Assembly (NCBI GenBank): GCA_002189035.1
Contig: NEEC01000025.1
Coordinates: 675,300 to 739,299, forward strand
Reading direction: 5' to 3'
DNA length: 64,000 nucleotides
Origin: Utricularia gibba
Taxonomy: Eukaryota; Streptophyta; Magnoliopsida; Lamiales; Lentibulariaceae
A program made the translations under genes and the position numbers. This document shows positions 41,077-64,000 of this stretch, piece by piece; positions within the stretch are counted from its first letter, which is position 1, and the number at the start of each line of letters is the position of its first letter. The notes below the pieces were generated by a model, which worked only from the letters and a program-made list of their open reading frames with translations, was not told the DNA's origin and made no database searches.

Positions 41077-41527
41077 CTTACGTATCGAAGTGAATTCTTT
41101 GGACCCCAAAACATGTGTTATCTGTAGGGTTGGGCCCAACTCACCCCCTCAACATGGGCCATCGCTTTTTCATTTTTAATAAAACTTGCTTATTTATGAT
41201 GATCACCCGGTGGGCCGGTGCTGATGGATATCGGATACACGCATGCAATATTGGCCCAGAAAAAACTCAGGGGGTCCGTCTCTTAGTTGTTCATTGTTGG
41301 GAAGACTTGGTTGGTGGTGTAATCAGTGACGCAATCCCAATCCCAGAACTAACACTGCATTTGATTCGATGGAGAAACCGGGGGACAGGAACCCCGGTCG
41401 CTAGTCTATTGTAGCATCCTCAGGCACTTGGATTTAAACGAGGAAGTTAGTTTTGGACCATCGAACTCACTATTGTAAGCTGCATGCACTTGCACAGGAA
41501 ACTTTTAAGCAGTTTGATTCTCATGCG
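41077..41527. other. Intergenic flank left of the Copia element
   Basis: Presumed promoter side of the small membrane protein gene, interrupted at 41528 by the retrotransposon. The five bases before the insertion (atgcg) nearly match the five after it (atgct). Confidence 0.55.
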
Positions 41528-41834
41528 TGTTAGATTATGCTGCATCAGCGTTACGTCCTGAAGAACTCAGCACACCGGCGTCTATCTGTAATGGTGCGAT
41601 TCTGGAGGAGAGCGAAACCTGGGTTGATTAGAGAATGAGGCCCGGCATCAACCTAGAAAAGCCCAAAGGTCCAAATCATCATCTGAAGCCCACTAACTAC
41701 TGCAACGGTCGACTCTTTCATAGGAAGTGTTTAAATACTTCCAAGTATTACCTGTTGTTAAGTATGTTCTCTATTTGAAACTTACTTCTCAAGCTCAAGC
41801 ACCAACGTTGCTCCAAACCCACAACATATCATCA
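41528..41834 (+). repeat. 5' LTR of Copia element
   Basis: Starts TGTTAG and ends ATCA, 307 bp. It is identical to the 3' LTR except at five positions, all in the last 40% (near 41703, 41711, 41733, 41764 and 41773). Confidence 0.97.
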
Positions 41835-44900: not shown

Positions 44901-46049
44901 GGTTTTCAAAGGAGCAAAAACGACACCACACTCTATACGTTGAAGAACGAAAAGAAGTACCTCATTCTGTCTCTCTACGTCGACGACATTCTTCTTACTG
45001 GCAATGACAATCATCTACTGAATCAAGAAAAACAGCAACTCATGACTACATTTGAGATGAGCGATCTAGGAACAATGAGCTACTTCTTGGGGCTAGAGAT
45101 CAAGCATACTCCTGATTGCATCTACCTAAGCCAACACAAATATACTGCTGATCTCATAAAAAAATACCACATGAGTAATGCAAAGACTGCTAGTGTACCT
45201 GCCATGAAGCCTGATCAAATCAACGAAGAAGCTTCTGCCAATGATAAAATCTTCAGTAGCTTGATTGGCTCGCTTATATACCTATCTGCTACCAGACCTG
45301 ACATTTGTTTTTATGTCAGCTATCTCTCTCGCTACCTACGGAATCCTCACAAACATCATATGGACGCAGCCAAGCAGATCATCAAATACTTGAACTCAAC
45401 GATGGCCTATGGTCTAGCATTCAAAAAAGGCACAGGTATGAATTCATCTGGATTCACTGACTCTGACTATGCAGGTAGCTTTGAGGATTCAAGGAGCACA
45501 AGCGGTTACCTCTTCACATTCGGATCAGGAGTCTTCAGTTGGGCATCCAGGAAGCAAGACATCATTGCACTATCGACCACTGAAGCGGAATACATTGCAG
45601 CAGTGGAAGCTGCTAAACATGCCATATGGCTCAGGAAAATTCTGGAAGACATAGACCTACCAACTCACGGGGCTACCACCCTTTGGATCGATAATAAGTC
45701 AGCAATTGCTCTAGGGGAAAATCCAACGCAATTCGGGAGGAGCAAACATATCAGAGTTCGATATCATGCTCTTAGAGAGTTTGTATCAAATGGAGAAATC
45801 GCGCTCAAGTATATTCAAACTGAAGAGCAGGCTGCTGACCTACTTACAAAATTCCTGCCGCCCAAACGATTTGCTTACCTAAGAGACAAGGTAGGTATGA
45901 AGGAATGTCCCACAAAAAACTCAGAAGCTTCGCAGCAAGGAGGAGTGTTAGATTATGCTGCATCAGCGTTACGTCCTGAAGAACTCAGCACACCGGCGTC
46001 TATCTGTAATGGTGCGATTCTGGAGGAGAGCGAAACCTGGGTTGATTAG
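41938..46049 (+). pseudogene. Copia gag-pol polyprotein, interrupted
   Basis: Opens at ATG 41938 with a UBN2-type gag (FDGKNYLIWAAKMKCYMQAL). Two CCHC knuckles follow at about 42650-42770 (CQFCKGKNHLNKDC, CTYCSATGHIEQVC), then protease (WYLDSGCSNHLT, about 42902), integrase (zinc-binding HQRFGHICQQ and CSICQQGKM; RTDNGGEYSP), reverse transcriptase (YVDDILLTGND at about 44972) and RNase H (TDSDYAGSFEDSRSTSGYLF, TEAEYIAAVEA). Breaks: a frame change near 42476, an in-frame TAA at 42974-42976, and a frame change near 43817 beside an A7 run. From about 43827 to 46049 RT and RNase H are open and look uncorrupted. The frame ends inside the 3' LTR. Confidence 0.95.
45934..45945 (+). other. Polypurine tract of Copia element
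   Basis: AGCAAGGAGGAG lies immediately before the 3' LTR, at the expected position for the plus-strand primer. Confidence 0.85.
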
Positions 46050-46252
46050 AGAATGAGGCCCGGCATCAACCTAGAAAAGCCCAAAGGTCCAAATCATCAT
46101 CTGAAGCCCACTAACTACTGTAACGGTCTACTCTTTCATAGGAAGTGTTTGAATACTTCCAAGTATTACCTGTTGTTAAGTCTGTTCTCTGTTTGAAACT
46201 TACTTCTCAAGCTCAAGCACCAACGTTGCTCCAAACCCACAACATATCATCA
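45946..46252 (+). repeat. 3' LTR of Copia element
   Basis: 307 bp from TGTTAG to ATCA, 98.4% identical to the 5' LTR by direct comparison. It also codes the last residues of the pol frame. Confidence 0.97.
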
Positions 46253-47778: not shown

Positions 47779-49140
47779 CTAGTTGAGGTACACGTGACAT
47801 TGAAGAACAGTTCCACAAACTCTGAATCCTGGAACAACCGTGAAAGCCACCCTTGGCTCTGTTGCTGCAGTGGTTTTGTGTGAAAAAAAGGCTTCACCAT
47901 TCAAACTCTCCATCCAAACTTCAGAAAAGCGGCTGCCTCTACCAAACTGAAAAACTGTGACATGTGGATGGAAAGAGAAGGCGAGACAGTGGAGGAGCCA
48001 TATGTGCTTGGCCATTTCAGCGAATTCTGTGAAAAATGGCGTGTGCGGGTAGTCACCAGAATTCACCAAATGCCATTGCTCCAAATTACCAAAGAGAGAT
48101 GACTCCATTTTTGGATGCACAAGCTGCAGATACTTCTTTTGGCAGTATGAGGCAAACCGGGACTTGGGCATCAGGGCAAGATAATCTGATGCCTTGATGG
48201 ACTTCAGCTCCAAAAATTCATCAAAAGACAGAGATCGTCTGTTTTCCTGATCAGAGAACAACTTGTCTTTGGAAACAAAGTCAGGGTAATTGAAACCATC
48301 AAGCATTTCTCTGCATACAAAAGATTCGAATACATAGCGACAGTCAGCTGGCTTTAAGAAAGTAATCCCAGGTTCAATTGCATCGGCCGCAGCAGCGATA
48401 TCCCAGCCAGAAGATTCCATCACACTGATCAGCATCCGCACAAAGCCTTGAATGCATTTTACAGCTCGCTGATAGCCTGTGGTGAAATGAGTTGACTTTA
48501 AGTTTGATAGTGAAACATTACTTCGCACGCCTAACTCTAGCTCTCCAGCTGAGTGCATACTCTTTTCAAGCAACTTCCTGTCCTTGAGGACTCCAGCTAA
48601 CTTCTCTCTCAAAAATTTCAACTCAGAATCCTTGCTCTTTATTTGTAAATCCAGCTTGTTACTTGTGATTTCATATGTCCGAAGCATACTCTTAAGCTCC
48701 TGAATTTCGTAAGAGAAAATAGTAGTCACCAACGATGTCTCCTGCAACTGTTTTTTCAGAAAACAATGCTTCAGTTTTGACAAATTCTTTAGCTCAGCCA
48801 CTATATTTTCATCTGCGGAACGAATCTGTTCAGAATCATAAGGGCACTGAGCCATTTGTAACAGTGCATACGCAGCCTTGATGGTTGATACACTGGAAAA
48901 TACTCCTGCGAAAAAAGCTTCTCTAGCTAGGTTGGCCCTCTGATCTTCATTCTCATCTCGAAAACTAGAAACTGAGGAGAATATGGATTGATCATTTTTC
49001 ATCTGCTCCTGAAACTTTATTTTTGTGGTCCCATCACCTGAACCTGCTCCTGATCCCGAATGAACATGCAAAATCTTTACCATTGCACGTAGCAAGCTGC
49101 TCTTATCTTGAGTAGCCTCTGATCCCTTAACTGAATCCAT
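47779..49140 (-). CDS. GIL1: GIL1-like DUF641 protein (gravitropic in the light)
   Basis: Single coding exon of 453 codons plus stop from ATG 49140. DUF641 is recognisable near the N-terminus (NLAREAFFAGVFSSVSTIKA, YALLQMAQCPYDSEQIRSAD, VAELKNLSKLKHCFLKKQ). A coiled-coil stretch (IQELKSMLRTYEITSNKLDL) and the GIL1-type C-terminal half (GWDIAAAADAIEPGITFLKP, RYVFESFVCREMLDGF, FAEMAKHIWLLHCLAFSF) follow. Length and order match Arabidopsis GIL1, which acts downstream of phytochrome to disturb hypocotyl gravitropism in light. The ATG sits directly behind a splice acceptor at 49142-49141, so a 5' UTR intron (49944-49141) and a leader exon ending at 49945 are likely. The paralogue could also be IRKI-like, but the C-terminal half favours GIL1. 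Confidence 0.9.
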   Translation of the reverse strand: MDSVKGSEATQDKSSLLRAMVKILHVHSGSGAGSGDGTTKIKFQEQMKNDQSIFSSVSSFRDENEDQRANLAREAFFAGVFSSVSTIKAAYALLQMAQCPYDSEQIRSADENIVAELKNLSKLKHCFLKKQLQETSLVTTIFSYEIQELKSMLRTYEITSNKLDLQIKSKDSELKFLREKLAGVLKDRKLLEKSMHSAGELELGVRSNVSLSNLKSTHFTTGYQRAVKCIQGFVRMLISVMESSGWDIAAAADAIEPGITFLKPADCRYVFESFVCREMLDGFNYPDFVSKDKLFSDQENRRSLSFDEFLELKSIKASDYLALMPKSRFASYCQKKYLQLVHPKMESSLFGNLEQWHLVNSGDYPHTPFFTEFAEMAKHIWLLHCLAFSFHPHVTVFQFGRGSRFSEVWMESLNGEAFFSHKTTAATEPRVAFTVVPGFRVCGTVLQCHVYLN

Positions 49141-49944
49141 CTGAATCAAGAAACAACTAAAATCAACCACCGGGAACAAGCTTTAACTTAGGATATGAAA
49201 TGAGGTGAAAAATACGTATGAGATTATCATCTAACTGAGACAAAGTTCGATGCCCCATTTTGCGAATAACTACATAAAAGTTTGCAGTTGGGGGTACAAT
49301 TTGATACCATAAACATTCAACCACACGAGTAACAACTGGTAGCATCAAAGTACTGGTCACCCATTGGCCCCACAGTTCACACACAAACTATCCGATCCCG
49401 TATGCAAAAAAAAGTAGAGAATTGTGACGCAATGAGATGTAAAAGAATGGGTTACCGTCTACATGCATGAACTAGAAGGAGGGTACTGCACGTCTCCACA
49501 TGGATGCTCATGAGGCGAAATTTAAGTGAGCCGGGAAAATTGGTAGATGAACACACATGACAAGTGTAACTGATATCGACAAGCAGACAAATTCCCAATC
49601 CCTCAGGGACCACCCCTTCCATTCACCCAACAACTAAATCAAAGATGAATAAAGGTGCAATCTTTCACTAACATGGAAAGCTCCCCTTCGGGAAAGATAT
49701 TCACCAACCAGAAGAACGAACAAAAAAGGTAGAGCATCAAAATTTTATTACATTCTCATTCGGAGGGGAGGAGAAAGAAAACCATTAACTCGATTATGAG
49801 ACACGGGCCCATTCACCACAAGCGCGTGGATGTAATTCAAGTGACCCCAACTTTGTAATATGAAACGGGACAACAAGGAGGGTCGAGAATAAATAGTCCC
49901 TGCTGAATAATGTCTTTGACCATCGCGTAAAAAACTATCGTTAC

Positions 49945-50090
49945 CTTGCAGAGATGGCCCCGATGGTCAAGAGACGCTGCGGATTGACGCTCCTACAACT
50001 GGGGAAAACCCCGACAATGAAATACGCCAGCCACTCTCTTCTCGGTTACTTCCTCCTCAGCTCCTGAAGGCAAGTGCAGAGGCATGCTCA
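49945..50090 (-). repeat. GIL1 5' leader exon segment, copy A of an inverted duplication
   Basis: On the minus strand this segment runs from ATGCCTCTGC to the splice donor CTCTGCAAG/GTAAC. It matches 60136-60275 on the plus strand, including a 26-bp perfect block at 49999-50024 (copy B: 60196-60221) and a 21-bp perfect block around GGAGCGTCAATCCGCAGCGT. This copy has no insertion at the ATGCCTC end. Confidence 0.9.
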
Positions 50091-55786: not shown

Positions 55787-58103
55787 ATGGCTCAATTTAC
55801 AGCTGGGGGAGGGGGTCGCCCAAAGTCACTCTTTAGTATGGATGGATGGCCCGTTGGTTTCGATTCGCAATATCACCGCCTTGGGGTTACAACTTTGGGC
55901 GGCTGCCGAGGGAGGTACTCGAGATACAATTACTCGTTTTCAGTTCCTCGTGGAGAACCAAGGATCAAGCTCTGGATTGTTCGAGCTCTCATGGCAGATG
56001 CCTCAGGATCATCATTAACTTCCGCGGGAAATATATGGAGTGACACCTTTGATGAGATTCCGAACGATGATATGGACTTCGAATTTGATGAACTGGCTGG
56101 TTTCAGAGGGTTGGTTCTGGATATTTCCTACAGGTTAGCTTCTCGTTTTGCTTCTACCAACAATATAATGATCTTGAAATTCCATTGTGTCATTATTTTC
56201 CTGGTTACGGAACCCGCATTGCGTTGTCGGAAGTAGCTTGCCTGGCTATAATACGTACCATGTTATACATAAAATGTGCAGTTCATTGGCATATGAGAGA
56301 CTTGGAAAAATAGGGATTATCTGTTAATTAGGTTCTGCATTCCCCACCCTTATTTCCTACTTCTGAGGAGTGTGATATCAAATATCTGTACAGGCCTTAC
56401 TGATGTTTCTTTATTCGCCATAAAGCATGATTTGTGCGCTCAGCTTGTTTTTTTTTTTCATATATTCCCGCTTTTGTTTTGTTTATTCTTCTATCATTGC
56501 TCATTTTAGTATATGCTGTTGCATTCTATTATAGATGTATTTATGCACAATAAATGATATGTAGGTGATAATATAGCAGCGTTGCTATTATAATTTTTGC
56601 AGACTATTTTATGAAACGATGCTAATGGGTTTGCCCTTTATCATAGGCCTGTTAATGTTGTATGCTGGAAACGTGCCATATGCCTTGAGTTTATGGATAA
56701 GGTTAGTTTTTGCAACCAACACAACCATTAATCTCCGAAGACCTCGAGAACTTATTGCGCCAATTATGTCTTCCATGTATCAATGACTACATAGCTGTTT
56801 TTTTTTTTTTTTTTTTTTCTAAATAACACAAACATCTAAATATCAATGGAGCCTTTACGTAACATGCAGGATTTGAAGTTTGAGCTAACGATGGTCTTTG
56901 GTGATATCTGGTTTCATACAGTTGCAGTTGTTGTTGTTTCCACGGAACCTTAATATTATTATTTCGTGTGGTTCTCCTTTATTGCAGGCTGATGTCCTCG
57001 AATACTACGACCAAACTATAAGCTCTCCAAGTGGTTCATTCTATATTCCCGCTGTTTTAAGGGTATGCCTACTTTTCATTTTAATAATATTGTTTTCTCG
57101 TCGCATGATTCCTAATTTCAGTGGTTGATTTCCGGTGTGAAATTTAGTTATTACCTCATTCTTTTGGTCGAAAAGCTTCCATGTTCATTGTCTATAAAGA
57201 CTTCTCTTTTTCCGACTCTGTCAACCGTCGTAGCTATTTTTATTCATTTGAAATGCGTCAACCGTGACAGGTTCCACAATTACTACAAGTCAGGAGAAGG
57301 AAAGTGAAGAGAAACCTTAGTCGTAAAAATGTCTTCCATCGGGACAACTTCATGTGCCAGTGAGTTATTTTCCTTAATATTGTGCTTCACCTCGCAATCC
57401 AAGGCATAGGCGTCCGTCTTCACCAATGAAACCACTTGATTACTCTAACGGTGTTTTCTTGTTAGGTACTGTTCATCGCATGACAGCTTGACCATTGACC
57501 ATGTTTTGCCAATTGCTCGAGGGGACAGTGGACATGGGAAAATTTGGTAAGATGATAGTTGTAGATTGAAGTCTTGCGTGCTTTGTAAACCTTGGTGAAA
57601 GAGTATGCTGATATCATGCCACTGAGTTTGGACCTAAACTCCAAGCTACCAAAGTGGCTTCTAAAAATATTTTGTGGTAAAAGAAACTTGTTCGCCTGTT
57701 TTTTTCCTATAATAATTGTTTCAAAAATCAACACCAATTTATTCATGAATTAGGTCGCAGCTTGTGCCAAATGCAACTCAAAAAAGGGCCAGAAAACCTT
57801 GGAGGAGGCGAATATGAAATTGATGAAGACACCTAAGGTACATGCTCGAGGTCTTCGTGATAACTGAATGAAGTGATAAAATCACCTGAACAATCAAGAT
57901 TTGTTGAACATGGAACTGAAATTCCGATGCGATCAATTCTGAGTTGGATATATAAAGATCTTTTTTACATTTTATAGGCTCCCAAGGACTTTGATATACT
58001 TGCTATTCCGCTGACAAACTATACTAGGCGTATGCTGAGAATGCGGAAGGGTATGCCAAAGGAGTGGCAAGAGTATCTCTCAAGTCCACACGCAGCGCCA
58101 TGA
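55787..58103 (+). CDS. HNH endonuclease-domain protein, plant type (one-base frameshift)
   Basis: Seven exons: 55787-56133, 56647-56701, 56988-57062, 57271-57359, 57466-57546, 57754-57837, 57978-58103. Conserved parts: RPVNVVCWKRAICLEF, ADVLEYYDQTISSPSGSFYI, RKNVFHRDNFMCQYC, the HNH core LTIDHVLPIARG, then CAKCNSKKGQKTLEEAN and a C-terminal RKGMPKEWQEYL. The paired CxxC motifs and DH...N fit a zinc-stabilised ββα-metal nuclease shared by cyanobacteria and plants; plastid location is likely but not shown. Frame changes in exon 5: one extra base in the G4 run at 57531-57534 restores the family's GGxWxWENL motif and about 285 residues. The start ATG 55787 is the least certain part, because upstream exons may exist. 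Confidence 0.85.
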
Positions 58104-59173
58104 TGTCCATTGCATGTAGGACTCCGCGCATCAATTCCTGTACATCACGCAACACTAAAGAAGATACTGTAAGGGTGCAGATTATATGTAAATAGTGAAT
58201 TCCATCATTCAGGTCGATTTGAGATTTATTAGTTAGTTTGATAAGAATAATGATTTTTAGGGTTAAGTTTGTTATAGTTAAGGATATTGGTGAATCAACT
58301 ATTCAATCTCACTGGCCGACCCTGACCCCTGTTATTTTGAGGTCATATCTAGTATTCAGAGTTTGCCTCGATTCGCCACGTACTTCGAGGTTCTTTAAGA
58401 GCAAATGAATCAACTAATGGGCCAAAGGCAGCCTTCATGAAAGCGATACCTGACCAAGGAGAACTAATCAATATAAATCTTCATGTACCGGCGGGGCTGT
58501 CAATCTAGCTCAACCAGGCGTATAATCTAAATTAAAATCGATTTTTTTTTAAAAAAAAAATTTAAATTGATAGTGGATACAAATATGAAAATTGCAAAAT
58601 TGATTATAAATAATCAGGATCCATATTTAAACTCTTAAATAATAATTGATTATAACTTCAAAATATATATCTGATTTTCTTTTATGAGAATTGATTTTTA
58701 AAAATCAATTCAATTCTCAAAGAAGTTTGGATGTATAACTTGTCATATAGGATTGTTTTTTTCAAAATTGATTTTAAAAAATAAATTTAATATTATATTC
58801 TTTTATTAATATATAATTATAGATAATACAATTTTTTAAAATAAATACTAATTTATATATTTTTAAAAAAATTATTCTGCTTACATGGGGTAGGATTTTA
58901 CAAATTTTCACTCAATAACACAAGAATTATTGATTTAAAAATTTTTAAAAATTTGATTAATATTGATGTTATATAATATATTTCATTTAAATAAATTTAT
59001 AAAATATGATTATTAGTAAATATGGATAAATTTTATAGTAATCGTTATCAAAAAATACTTCCAAACATGTATAAATTCTCATTCTAATAAAATTTTTGTT
59101 TTTGTTAAAATCAATTATGAAATAATTTTTCCCAAGGTTGACCTAATCTGTCTGCTCATACGTGCTCATAATA
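58104..59173. other. AT-rich intergenic block downstream of the HNH gene
   Basis: HNH 3' flank to about 58520, then about 630 bp of very AT-rich sequence (58530-59130) with many TTTAAA/AATT runs and no frames of note. It may be a degenerate transposon or simply AT-rich spacer; no ends could be defined. Confidence 0.45.
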
Positions 59174-59183
59174 TGTATGCCTC
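59174..59183. repeat. Left target-site duplication of the Mutator-like element
   Basis: TGTATGCCTC, repeated exactly at 60136-60145 on the other side of the AT-rich element. Confidence 0.75.
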
Positions 59184-59411
59184 GGGTGATTTTGTTAAAT
59201 ACCCTTGTCATAACATATTTATTGTTCATTTACCATTTACACTTTAATGCATTTGTTTTTTACCTTTTTTAACATTTTTTATTGTCATTTTACCTTAGTT
59301 ATTCTTTTTATTTGTGTTTTACCTCTTTTTAATGCATTTGTTCTTTACCTGATATTATAAACTTAAACTAACTAAATCATAATAATAAAACTTATTTACC
59401 TTTATTTTAAT

Positions 59412-59533
59412 CTCTAAAATTTCGAAAACCTTAATATTATATTATAACTAAAATATAAATACTTAATTTAAATCTTCAATTGAAACTATAAAGTCTGAAA
59501 ATAAACTATATTTTTAATAATATTAATATATGA
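59412..59533. repeat. Internal direct repeat unit 1 of the AT-rich element
   Basis: Resembles 59700-59822 over about 120 bp: shared strings include atttcgaaaa, tataaatact, aaaccttcaattgaaa-like text and tttttaataatattaatata at the end. I estimate about 80% identity by eye. Confidence 0.75.
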
Positions 59534-59699
59534 ACCATAATCCACTGCTTAAATCATCTAAGGGGGAATTCGATTTCTTATCTTTGCTATTTATGAATTC
59601 ACCGTCTAATCGGTGGAAATCAAGCTAGGCGGCTCCGACGTGGGTTTAAACAATTCCTATCCAATATACTACAAAAATTTGTTTCATGAAAATTATAAA

Positions 59700-59822
59700 A
59701 TATAATCATGAATTTCGAAAAACTAATATTATACTATTACTAAAGTATAAATACTGAATTTAAACCTTCAATTGAAATCTTAAATTATGAAAATAAAGTG
59801 TATTTTTAATAATATTAATATA
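59700..59822. repeat. Internal direct repeat unit 2 of the AT-rich element
   Basis: Second copy of the unit at 59412-59533, same orientation. Confidence 0.75.
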
Positions 59823-60135
59823 TCAAAAAAATGTATCCAATAAATTTATTAAAACTAAAAAATATAAAAAATCATAAAGATAAGATAAAATGAAAAAATA
59901 ACTCTATTTTTGTTAATATTACAAAGTTTTTATAAAGTTAATATAAATAAAAAAGTAAATGAAAAAAGTTGAGGTATTTACCCATTTAATCTTTTAAGGT
60001 AATATAAAAGTAATGACAAAAGATAAGGTATGTTACTAATTATATTTAAAAACTCAGGTAAAATAATAATAAATTTAAAAAGTAGGGTAATATGAAAATG
60101 TTTTTAAAAATGTAGAGTATTTCACTCATTTACTC

Positions 60136-60275
60136 TGTATGCCTCTGCTCTTGCTTCGAGAGCTGAGGGAGTACCCGAGGAGACAGTGACTGGCTTATTT
60201 CATTGTCGGGGTTTTCCCCAGATATGGGAGCGTCAATCCGCAGCGTCAATTGACTATCGGGGCTGTCTCTGCAAG
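60136..60275 (+). repeat. GIL1-type leader exon, copy B, apparent 5' UTR exon of mtKAS
   Basis: Matches the reverse complement of 49945-50090. It ends in the same donor context, TCTCTGCAAG/GTAAT, at 60276. An acceptor at 60434-60435 just before the mtKAS ATG (60447) completes a probable 5' UTR intron, the same architecture as the GIL1-like gene. The first ten bases double as the right target-site duplication of the Mutator-like insertion. Confidence 0.85.
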
Positions 60276-60446
60276 GTAATAAGCAGTGATTTCAGTAGGA
60301 TTTTGAGGTGACAAAACTGACGGAAACTAGATTGAACATAATGCTAGGGAACCTATTATGCTGCTAATTCTTCAATTCGGTCACCAATATGTTCCAGCTT
60401 TGACAAGAACTTCCATTTTCTGCTTTGATCCTTAGAGAGAATTACA

Positions 60447-63436
60447 ATGGCGAAACACCATATTGGTAGATCCCTCGCTTCAGTCATACAATCCAACCGC
60501 CTATCATCGTCTTGTGCTGTTGATCTGCCATCTATCTCATCTTCTTTGCGTAGGGTAGTTGTAACAGGTATGCCATTGTGTTATTTCCACTCCAATTCTG
60601 TTCCTTGCTCTGTCGTGGCTTTGGTTTTGATTTCCTCAAGTTGTAGGTTTAGGAATGGTAACTCCATTGGGCTGTGGTGTGGAAGTCACGTGGAAGCGTT
60701 TGGTTGAAGGAGAATGCGGAATCAGGGCAATCAATATAGACGATCTCAAGATGACTGGTTTCGATGTAGAGACTCAGATGCATACCTTTGATCAACTAAC
60801 TTCTAAAGTTGCTGGTGTCATACCCTGTGGATGCAACCCGTATGAATTTAATGAAGAGCTGTGGCTCAAACTAAAGGTATAGCTTTTTCCCCCTCATTTT
60901 TTTTCCATAATTCATTAGTGGGGCCCTTCTTGTACCGTTATTTGTCATGCTCGTGGATGGTTAATTGAGTTGGCAATATTTTGGATTTGGAAGATTTTTT
61001 TGGGTAGCAGTTAACACATCCTGATTATTATTTTAAGTTTGTTAAGTTTCTATTTGTGAATCACTCCAGGAACACAGGTCGACGTCCAGGTTCATAGGCT
61101 ATGCATTGTGTGCTGCAGACGAGGCTCTAAGGGATGCAAATTATTTACCCCAAAGTCAACAGGAGAAGGAAAAAACGGTAGTCTTTTTGTGGAGTGTGGC
61201 TGATGTCACATTTTCTTTTGCTGCAAACATCTGAGTTCTACAGTAAGTATGAACAGGGGGTTTCGATTGGTGCTGGAACTGGCAGCATGAGTGATATATT
61301 GGATGCTTCAAGAATGATTATTGAGAAGGTGGATTGCTTTTTCCTGCTACCAAGTATTTGCTGTTCTTCCATTATGTCTGATGGTTGAGAACTTCTGTTC
61401 TATTTTTATTTAAATCTAGAAACTACGCAAGCTAAGTCCATTTTTCGTTCCAAGGATGTTAGTTAACATGGCGTCTGGTCATGTGAGCATGAAGTATGGT
61501 TTCCAGGTATTTGCATATAACTCCTCAACTTTATGGACGCGATACTGATATCTTTTCACTGACAATGCTTTTATTTTTTGTTCATGAAATTAATCTTGTT
61601 TTCTATTTAAAGCCAATTGCAGTCCTAAAGCTGGTGACGCCTTTTCATTTTTTGTCCATGTCTGTTCCTATTTCTCAATATATATGTTGTTTACATTTCT
61701 GATGTATCACATCTTTTATTTGGTAGATAGTGTTTACATTGTAGTCTTGGTTTTGAATGTAGGGCCCAAATCATGCTGCAGTAACAGCATGTGCAACTGG
61801 TGCACATTGTATTGGAGATGCTGCTAGGATGATTCTATTTGGGGATGCTGATGTTATGGTGGCTGGTGGTACTGAGGCATGCATTGATGCTCTATCAATA
61901 GGAGGCTTCTGCAGGTAATAATTATATATTCAATTGCTGTGTAAATAATTCTTGTTCGGATCTCTGCTTGATAGTCTCTATGGTCTTCTCTTTTGGGCTA
62001 GCCTTTCAATCAGGTAGCCACCCAGTTGTTTATTCATGAATCTCTCTCGAATTTCCAGGTTCCAAATACAATTTCTTTAACTAATTCTTGTTTTGTGAAC
62101 AGGTCCAGGGCGTTGTCAACCAAATACAACACAGTTCCCAGAGAATCCTCAAGACCTTTTGATTCAAACCGCGATGGTTTTGTGTGAGTAATCTGATCTG
62201 TGTAATTATGTGTTCTTGAAGAATGTTATTTAATGCACTTCTTAAACACAGAATAGGTGAAGGTTCTGGAGTTATTGTTTTGGAGGTGTGTTTTCTTCAG
62301 TATTATATTTTATTTCTGGTTTGAATGTAATGGCAATTAAATTCGCTCATGGAGTATAATGTCTGTAGCCTGAATGACATTGTTCTTCGAGATCACTATG
62401 CTCTTCGTTTTTAGGAATTAGAGCATGCAAAAAAGCGAGGAGCCGAAATATATGCAGAGTTCCGTGGTTATGGAATGTCTGGTAGTTTTCGTAGTCACGA
62501 ATTCTGTTATTTTAAAACCATGTAGCTCATGAGATTGCTTGCTGCTTCCTTAAGGTGACGCCTACCACATAACTCAACCTCACAATGACGGGAGGGGAGC
62601 TATTTTAGCCATGTCCCGTGCTCTCAAGCAGGTATTTTACTTCACACCCATTTTAGCATGGATGATTATCATTTCCTGTATTTCATGATGCAAATTTGAG
62701 TTATATTGCAGTGCAACCAGAATTAGTAGACACCAGTTTTCTTAACTTCAACAACAGACTTAAGGCACTAGAGGAGTGGAATTTTTTCTAATATTTCTTC
62801 TGTGCTGTGCTTGCAGTCCAGGCTGGGACCTGAGCAGGTGGATTACATCAATGCCCATGCAACTTCAACTCCTCTCGGTAATTTTGATTGCATTGCAGTG
62901 GGACTCCAGAGTAAGAGTAGTGGCTGTGGGATGGAAAGCCTGCTATGGTTGGACCAACATGGGTTTACACATTTGTAGGTGATCTAGTGGAAGCTAAGGC
63001 TATCCGTTCGTTTTTTGGGGATCATGCAACATGCGGTGCACTGGGCTTGTCCTCCACCAAGGTTTTTACTTTCCACCTTTATCAATAACATTCCAAGCTC
63101 TCCCTTATTAGCATTGCTTCGTGTTTTATGTGTCAAGGGTGCAACTGGGCATCTTCTTGGTGCAGCAGGTGCCGTTGAAGCAATTTTCTCCATACTAGCA
63201 GTAAAACACGTAAGCTCTTTATTTTTGCTGATATGAGCGAGGATGAATGCATCATAATATAATTGCAGGGCATAGCACCATTGACACTCAACCTAAAAGA
63301 ACCGGACCCTCTTGTATTCGGTGGGAAGTTCATGCCCCTGATGTCCTCCGAGACGAGGAGCATCAGGGTAGCGCTCTCCAACTCCTTCGGCTTTGGGGGA
63401 ACAAATTCATCCTTATTGTTTTCCTCGTTGGCTTGA
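60447..63436 (+). CDS. KAS (mtKAS): Mitochondrial 3-oxoacyl-[ACP] synthase (mtKAS)
   Basis: Fourteen exons: 60447-60567, 60647-60876, 61070-61177, 61257-61328, 61420-61506, 61763-61914, 62103-62183, 62252-62285, 62415-62481, 62555-62631, 62817-62877, 62979-63061, 63138-63209, 63269-63436. They sum to exactly 470 codons plus stop. A basic/Ser-rich presequence ([20 protein letters not shown]) precedes [20 protein letters not shown]. The Cys-His-His triad is complete: [16 protein letters not shown] (Cys), [13 protein letters not shown] (His), [15 protein letters not shown] (His). The C-terminus [15 protein letters not shown] is typical. mtKAS condenses malonyl-ACP with acyl-ACP in mitochondria and supplies octanoate for lipoic acid. 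The high exon number matches plant mtKAS rather than plastid KAS I/II. Confidence 0.95.
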
Positions 63437-63908
63437 CATCATAAACCATGCTTGAATATGTCATGATGAGCTTCTTTTATTTTGTCACAACCGAACTGAA
63501 GAGGCTGGAATCCCATGGGCAACATTTGATCCATCAGGTATCTCTCGCTAGTTTTGTGTTTTGTGGGGATAAAAACAGGGTTTTCATGGTTGCCTTTTTT
63601 GGCACGCCAATGTACCAGTTACTGCTCTTAGGGCTGTTCTTGGCGTCGCTAGCTGCGTTTTACATTTTCTTTAAGAACTCGAGTTGTTTTGGGGTCTCCC
63701 CATGCTAAGGGCTGACCCCAAAATGGAAGCTGATATGGGTACTGATCAAAATATGCGGGAGGCACGTAACTTGATGTAATACTTCGACCAACCCATTAGA
63801 TATTTATGTATTTTAAATGTTTTGAGCATTATCTCTGCTATAAACTAGTATAGAATGCTAAAGCTGAGTTACTCGCATCAGGGTTTGGGGTTGTTTTAAG
63901 GCCTCCCC
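63437..63908. other. mtKAS 3' flank and subtelomere-like spacer
   Basis: Holds the mtKAS 3' UTR. A short motif, ctccccatgctaaggg at about 63696, recurs as ctccccatgttaggg at about 63903, next to the telomeric repeats. A frame at 63448-63708 has no recognisable features and is not called. Confidence 0.5.
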
Positions 63909-63910
63909 AT

Positions 63911-64000
63911 GTTAGGGATTAGGGTTTATTAGGGTTTAGGGTTTAGGGTTTAGGGTTTATTAGGGTTTAGGGTTTATTAGGGTTTAGGGTTTAGGGTTTA
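63911..64000 (+). repeat. Telomere-type (TTTAGGG)n array with TTTATTAGGG variants
   Basis: From 63912 to the last base the sequence consists only of plant telomere units: six canonical TTTAGGG and three 10-mer TTTATTAGGG variants, after two degenerate units, and a partial unit at the edge. The G-rich strand runs 5'->3' towards the window end, the orientation of a true right-hand chromosome end. Confidence 0.9.

Follow-up and report, generated by a model that had tools for sequence, protein, structure and literature searches.

The GIL1-like and mtKAS genes and the segment they share

The window (the whole 64-kb stretch of DNA that was analysed) carries a GIL1-like gene on the reverse strand and mtKAS on the forward strand, both of which are intact as coding genes. 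The GIL1-like coding sequence (47779-49140, minus strand) is a single exon of 453 aa containing DUF641 (132.9 bits) and the GIL1/IRKI C-terminal domain GIL1_IRKI_C (71 bits), both over their cut-offs. The protein has about 20 matches in the genome, relatives and fragments together, the closest of which is 58% identical. Directly before its ATG lies a candidate 5' UTR intron of 804 nt (49141-49944, minus strand), ending in TTGATTCAG. The mtKAS coding region (60447-63436, plus strand) has 14 exons, and the protein has an N-terminal extension ahead of complete ketoacyl synthase N (188.5 bits) and C (125.7 bits) domains. It is single-copy in the genome, the remaining matches being synthases at 43-47% identity. 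The name mtKAS comes from a first-pass annotation of this DNA, and the gene structure and domains are consistent with it. In full-text literature searches, no paper on mtKAS leaders came up, and those on GIL1 were incidental.

Telomere-like repeats of the TTTAGGG type (63900-64000) close both the window and the contig to which it belongs (C480, 739,299 bases). They lie about 450 bp beyond the mtKAS stop codon, therefore no other gene appears to separate mtKAS from a chromosome end. Elsewhere in the window there is a 308-bp direct repeat (41527-41834 and 45945-46252, 98.4% identical). The two copies recur with their order unchanged on contig C486 (100% and 97% identity), which may therefore be an alternative haplotype of this contig-end region or a recent duplicate of it. 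C304 and C402 carry more diverged relatives (83-87%).

When 58001-61000 was compared with the window by BLAST, 60139-60279 on the plus strand paired with 50085-49941 on the minus strand over 145 columns at 85.5% identity, with 17 mismatches, 2 gap openings and an E value of about 4e-41 within the window. This confirmed the first-pass annotation, which had matched a segment near 60136-60275 to the inverted sequence of 49945-50090. The perfect blocks of 26 and 21 bp that it described were verified, as was the splice-donor context common to both copies, each of which finishes CTGCAAG/GTAA. On the mtKAS side (60139-60279, plus strand) the candidate 5' UTR exon would end at 60275, with the donor GTAA at 60276-60279, and on the GIL1 side (49941-50085, minus strand) it would end at 49945, with the donor GTAA at 49944-49941. 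The copies differ by 10 transitions, 7 transversions and indels of 1 and 3 bp. Only 3 repeat pairs emerged when the whole window was compared with itself (E <= 1e-6), and this one alone was inverted.

The possibility that the segment recurs at many loci had been raised with the first-pass annotation. With either copy as the query, the host genome (about 100 Mb, 516 contigs) yielded 2 places only, apart from matches of 36 bp on other contigs to the bases that precede the segment on its 5' side (60100-60135). This DNA search passes over very common words, and pattern searches with the 24-bp and 21-bp cores of the segment, allowing <=3 mismatches, concurred on the same 2 genomic places. The segment was therefore rejected as a dispersed repeat. 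As the copies are 14% diverged, an assembly duplicate was also ruled out. The two copies are most simply explained by a local inverted duplication.

A MULE-like insertion at the edge of the mtKAS-side copy

A dispersed, non-coding transposon of 952 bp (59184-60135), missed by the first-pass annotation, ends 3 bp from the segment homology. It is AT-rich, has putative degenerate terminal inverted repeats, and is flanked by a perfect 10-bp pair of target-site duplications, TGTATGCCTC, at 59174-59183 and 60136-60145 (both plus strand); this length falls within the 8-11 bp of MULE-like elements. The genome contains more than ten near-full-length members of its family, the nearest full-length one to 59184-60135 (G000:C2:3398075-3399041) being 97% identical, and three more members have target-site duplications of about 10 bp, GGAGCATTTC (L038), TGTGATTTAC (L042) and CCTAAAGGCC (L034). 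The 9-10-bp target-site duplications and the AT-rich non-coding body suggest that 59184-60135 is a non-autonomous MULE-like element. The two termini of the transposon, GGGTGATTTTGTTAAATAC and GAGTAAATGAGTGAAATAC, show a loose likeness, in a local alignment that is offset and barely above shuffles. It resembles known MULE-like insertions near the 5' ends of genes in its 10-bp target-site duplication, its multiple copies and its position immediately 5' of a gene. The candidate degenerate terminal inverted repeats would be a further likeness, but they are only weakly alike here, and no transposase-bearing parent was identified.

A 117-bp direct repeat (87%) is located inside the element (59418-59534 and 59711-59826), and several further family members contain it too. 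Upstream of the element is a second dispersed AT-rich repeat (about 58644-59150), which belongs to a strongly AT-rich family with dozens of copies at 68-84% identity.

The right copy of the target-site duplication overlaps the GIL1 homology, which begins with the final 7 bases of that copy, ATGCCTC (60139-60145). It is therefore likely that the duplication came first and the transposon later. The segment copies are 14% diverged and the nearest transposon copies 3%, which fits this order. When the empty site was rebuilt in silico by joining the flanks, the homology grew by about 12 bp (CTCATAATATGT versus CTCACAATGAGC, 8/12), an extension that was equalled by 4% of shuffles and agrees weakly with the same order.

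The first-pass annotation had read the match as an inverted duplication that carried the GIL1 leader, perhaps with its promoter, upstream of mtKAS. The inverted and otherwise unique copies upstream of two intact genes bear out the inverted duplication; the carriage of a promoter is not supported. The homology covers only about 145 bp, joining the flanks lengthens it by no more than about 12 bp, and 58101-59176 was unrelated to the region upstream of GIL1 (no better than shuffles), therefore there is no detectable GIL1 promoter homology at mtKAS. At the other end, an extension anchored past GTAA scored zero, so that the homology halts at donor +4, and the candidate introns of the two genes resembled each other no more than shuffled sequence. 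What the two loci have in common seems confined to the terminal part of the candidate GIL1 leader exon and its donor. The 952-bp transposon also stands between the mtKAS-side copy and all DNA further upstream, and promoter sharing by GIL1 and mtKAS is contradicted by this anatomy. The duplication itself is real, a fairly ordinary local inverted duplication plus a transposon insertion.

The segment as a candidate leader exon of mtKAS

If the mtKAS-side copy were used as a first exon, it would be followed by a candidate 5' UTR intron of 160 nt (60276-60435, plus strand; GTAATA ... CCTTAG), unrelated to the GIL1 intron, with its acceptor at 60435, 11 nt ahead of the ATG (60447). The splice sites were scored with a matrix made from the 13 coding introns of mtKAS, a small sample from which the scores are weak evidence either way. 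By this matrix, the donor at 60276 (AAG/GTAATA) was the top donor in 60130-60450 at 7.2 bits, while the GIL1 donor was outside the best-scoring donors. The acceptor ending at 60435 scored 1.9 bits, compared with 4.1-13.1 bits in all 13 coding introns, and a rival AG ending at 60347 scored 5.4 bits. Splicing out 60276-60435 would delete three upstream ATGs (60341, 60358 and 60389); two others, at 60139 and 60224 within the segment on the mtKAS side, would remain and open frames of 16 and 9 codons. Read by hand, the mtKAS frame runs into a stop in the leader if 60435 is the acceptor, therefore the leader would be untranslated.

The insertion point of the transposon is consistent, by analogy, with a transcription start near 60136, because the occupancy of Pack-MULEs in maize and rice is highest just upstream of transcription starts (PMC7337890). 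Taken from the DNA alone, the odds that the segment is a leader exon of mtKAS are about even.

The strongest competing explanation, which is a serious though somewhat less probable one, is that the mtKAS-side copy is a non-transcribed fragment and that transcription starts within 60280-60446, giving a short unspliced 5' UTR. The weak acceptor at 60435 points this way, as do the transposon lying 3 bp from the segment and the differences between the copies, which are spread without detectable clustering, as under neutral drift (the longest identical run is 26; P 0.24 under random placement). However, the donor context has been kept in both copies, the candidate acceptor lies only 11 nt ahead of the mtKAS ATG, and a start within this 160-nt stretch has to contend with the three upstream ATGs that splicing would delete.

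Direction of copying, selection and the proposed history

The first-pass annotation assumed that copying ran from GIL1 to mtKAS, a direction which we infer to be only mildly favoured. The reverse, in which mtKAS was the original owner of the segment and GIL1 received the copy, is unlikely, at roughly one chance in four. There is no outgroup to polarise the event, and nothing like the segment could be traced in the upstream sequence of the closest GIL1 paralog (58% identity); both points leave room for an mtKAS origin. More widely, the segment sought upstream of eight GIL1-family loci scored no better than shuffles, and an alignment of the GIL1-paralog intron ends near the ATG was not significant (P 0.13). 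Against an mtKAS origin, the GIL1-side segment sits in uninterrupted unique sequence, and the 5' flank on the mtKAS side consists of repeats, so that a comparison of flanks cannot decide.

Another explanation is that the duplication is old and that the leader exon has been under purifying selection for RNA-level regulation in both genes, while the introns and promoters diverged to saturation, so that the exon and its donor alone can still be recognised. The homology halts exactly at donor +4 although the introns are unrelated, and GTAA is retained in both copies. Such an exact end at a splice donor would be a coincidence under a simple duplication, and selection on the exon would explain it better; it is the one hint of selection, and could be due to chance or constraint. 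Nevertheless, old selection on the exon is improbable, as the longest identical run is no longer than random placement gives and the GIL1 paralogs do not carry the segment upstream. A conserved upstream ORF was rejected because the frames differ between the copies, no stable or common RNA fold was found (z -1.48 and 0.06), and Rfam gave no match to the segment at gathering or relaxed thresholds. It is less probable still, and indeed very doubtful, that the leader is a retained and selected RNA or DNA element through which mtKAS, a mitochondrial lipoate/fatty-acid gene, and GIL1, a light-gravitropism gene, are jointly controlled by their 5' UTRs, and that the end of the transposon now serves mtKAS as its promoter.

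The least probable of the explanations, that the segment represents part of a coding exon on the opposite strand, can be set aside almost entirely: the antisense strand is open in both copies (58 and 53 codons between stops), but Pfam gave no match to peptides of several frames on both strands, a protein search of the genome gave no third relative, and the copies differ by the 1- and 3-bp indels. The exact segment core, sought in viral and prokaryote collections on the slim chance that these include stray plant contigs, was absent from them.

The account that we favour, with a probability of roughly 0.6, is an inverted duplication followed by a MULE-like insertion, with mtKAS probably using the copy as its first exon. 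About 145-155 bp, running from within the GIL1-like 5' UTR exon to the donor at its 3' end, would have been copied in inverted orientation to a site ~10 kb away, probably by a short local inverted duplication such as a templated insertion during double-strand-break repair. A non-autonomous MULE-like transposon would then have entered the 5' edge of the copy, leaving the 10-bp target-site duplication and cutting the mtKAS-side copy off from its earlier upstream DNA. At about even odds, mtKAS could now use the copy as a non-coding first exon, with 60275 spliced to about 60436, and its transcription may be driven from the segment or from the adjoining transposon end.

The duplication resembles templated insertions and short local segmental duplications in that about 150 bp of unique sequence is found inverted, 10 kb away and with sharp ends; here, the ends of the insertion are obscured (by the transposon on the 5' side and with no outgroup), and the mechanism is a presumed one. 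It also resembles 5' exon shuffling, or 5' UTR capture, as a duplicated leader-like segment with a donor lies upstream of an unrelated gene. It differs from promoter or 5' UTR capture in that there is no promoter homology, and the copy is known as sequence, its transcription being putative.

What is new about this locus is the transposon that inserted beside the mtKAS-side copy, at its edge, and the duplication alone does not demonstrate co-regulation of GIL1 and mtKAS. If the leader is transcribed, this would be a compact and datable case of a gene gaining a 5' UTR exon from an unrelated neighbour, in which the gain of the exon was followed, within a compact plant genome, by a transposon that took the place of the upstream sequence. 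It would then provide a modest but clean case for the study of 5' exon acquisition.
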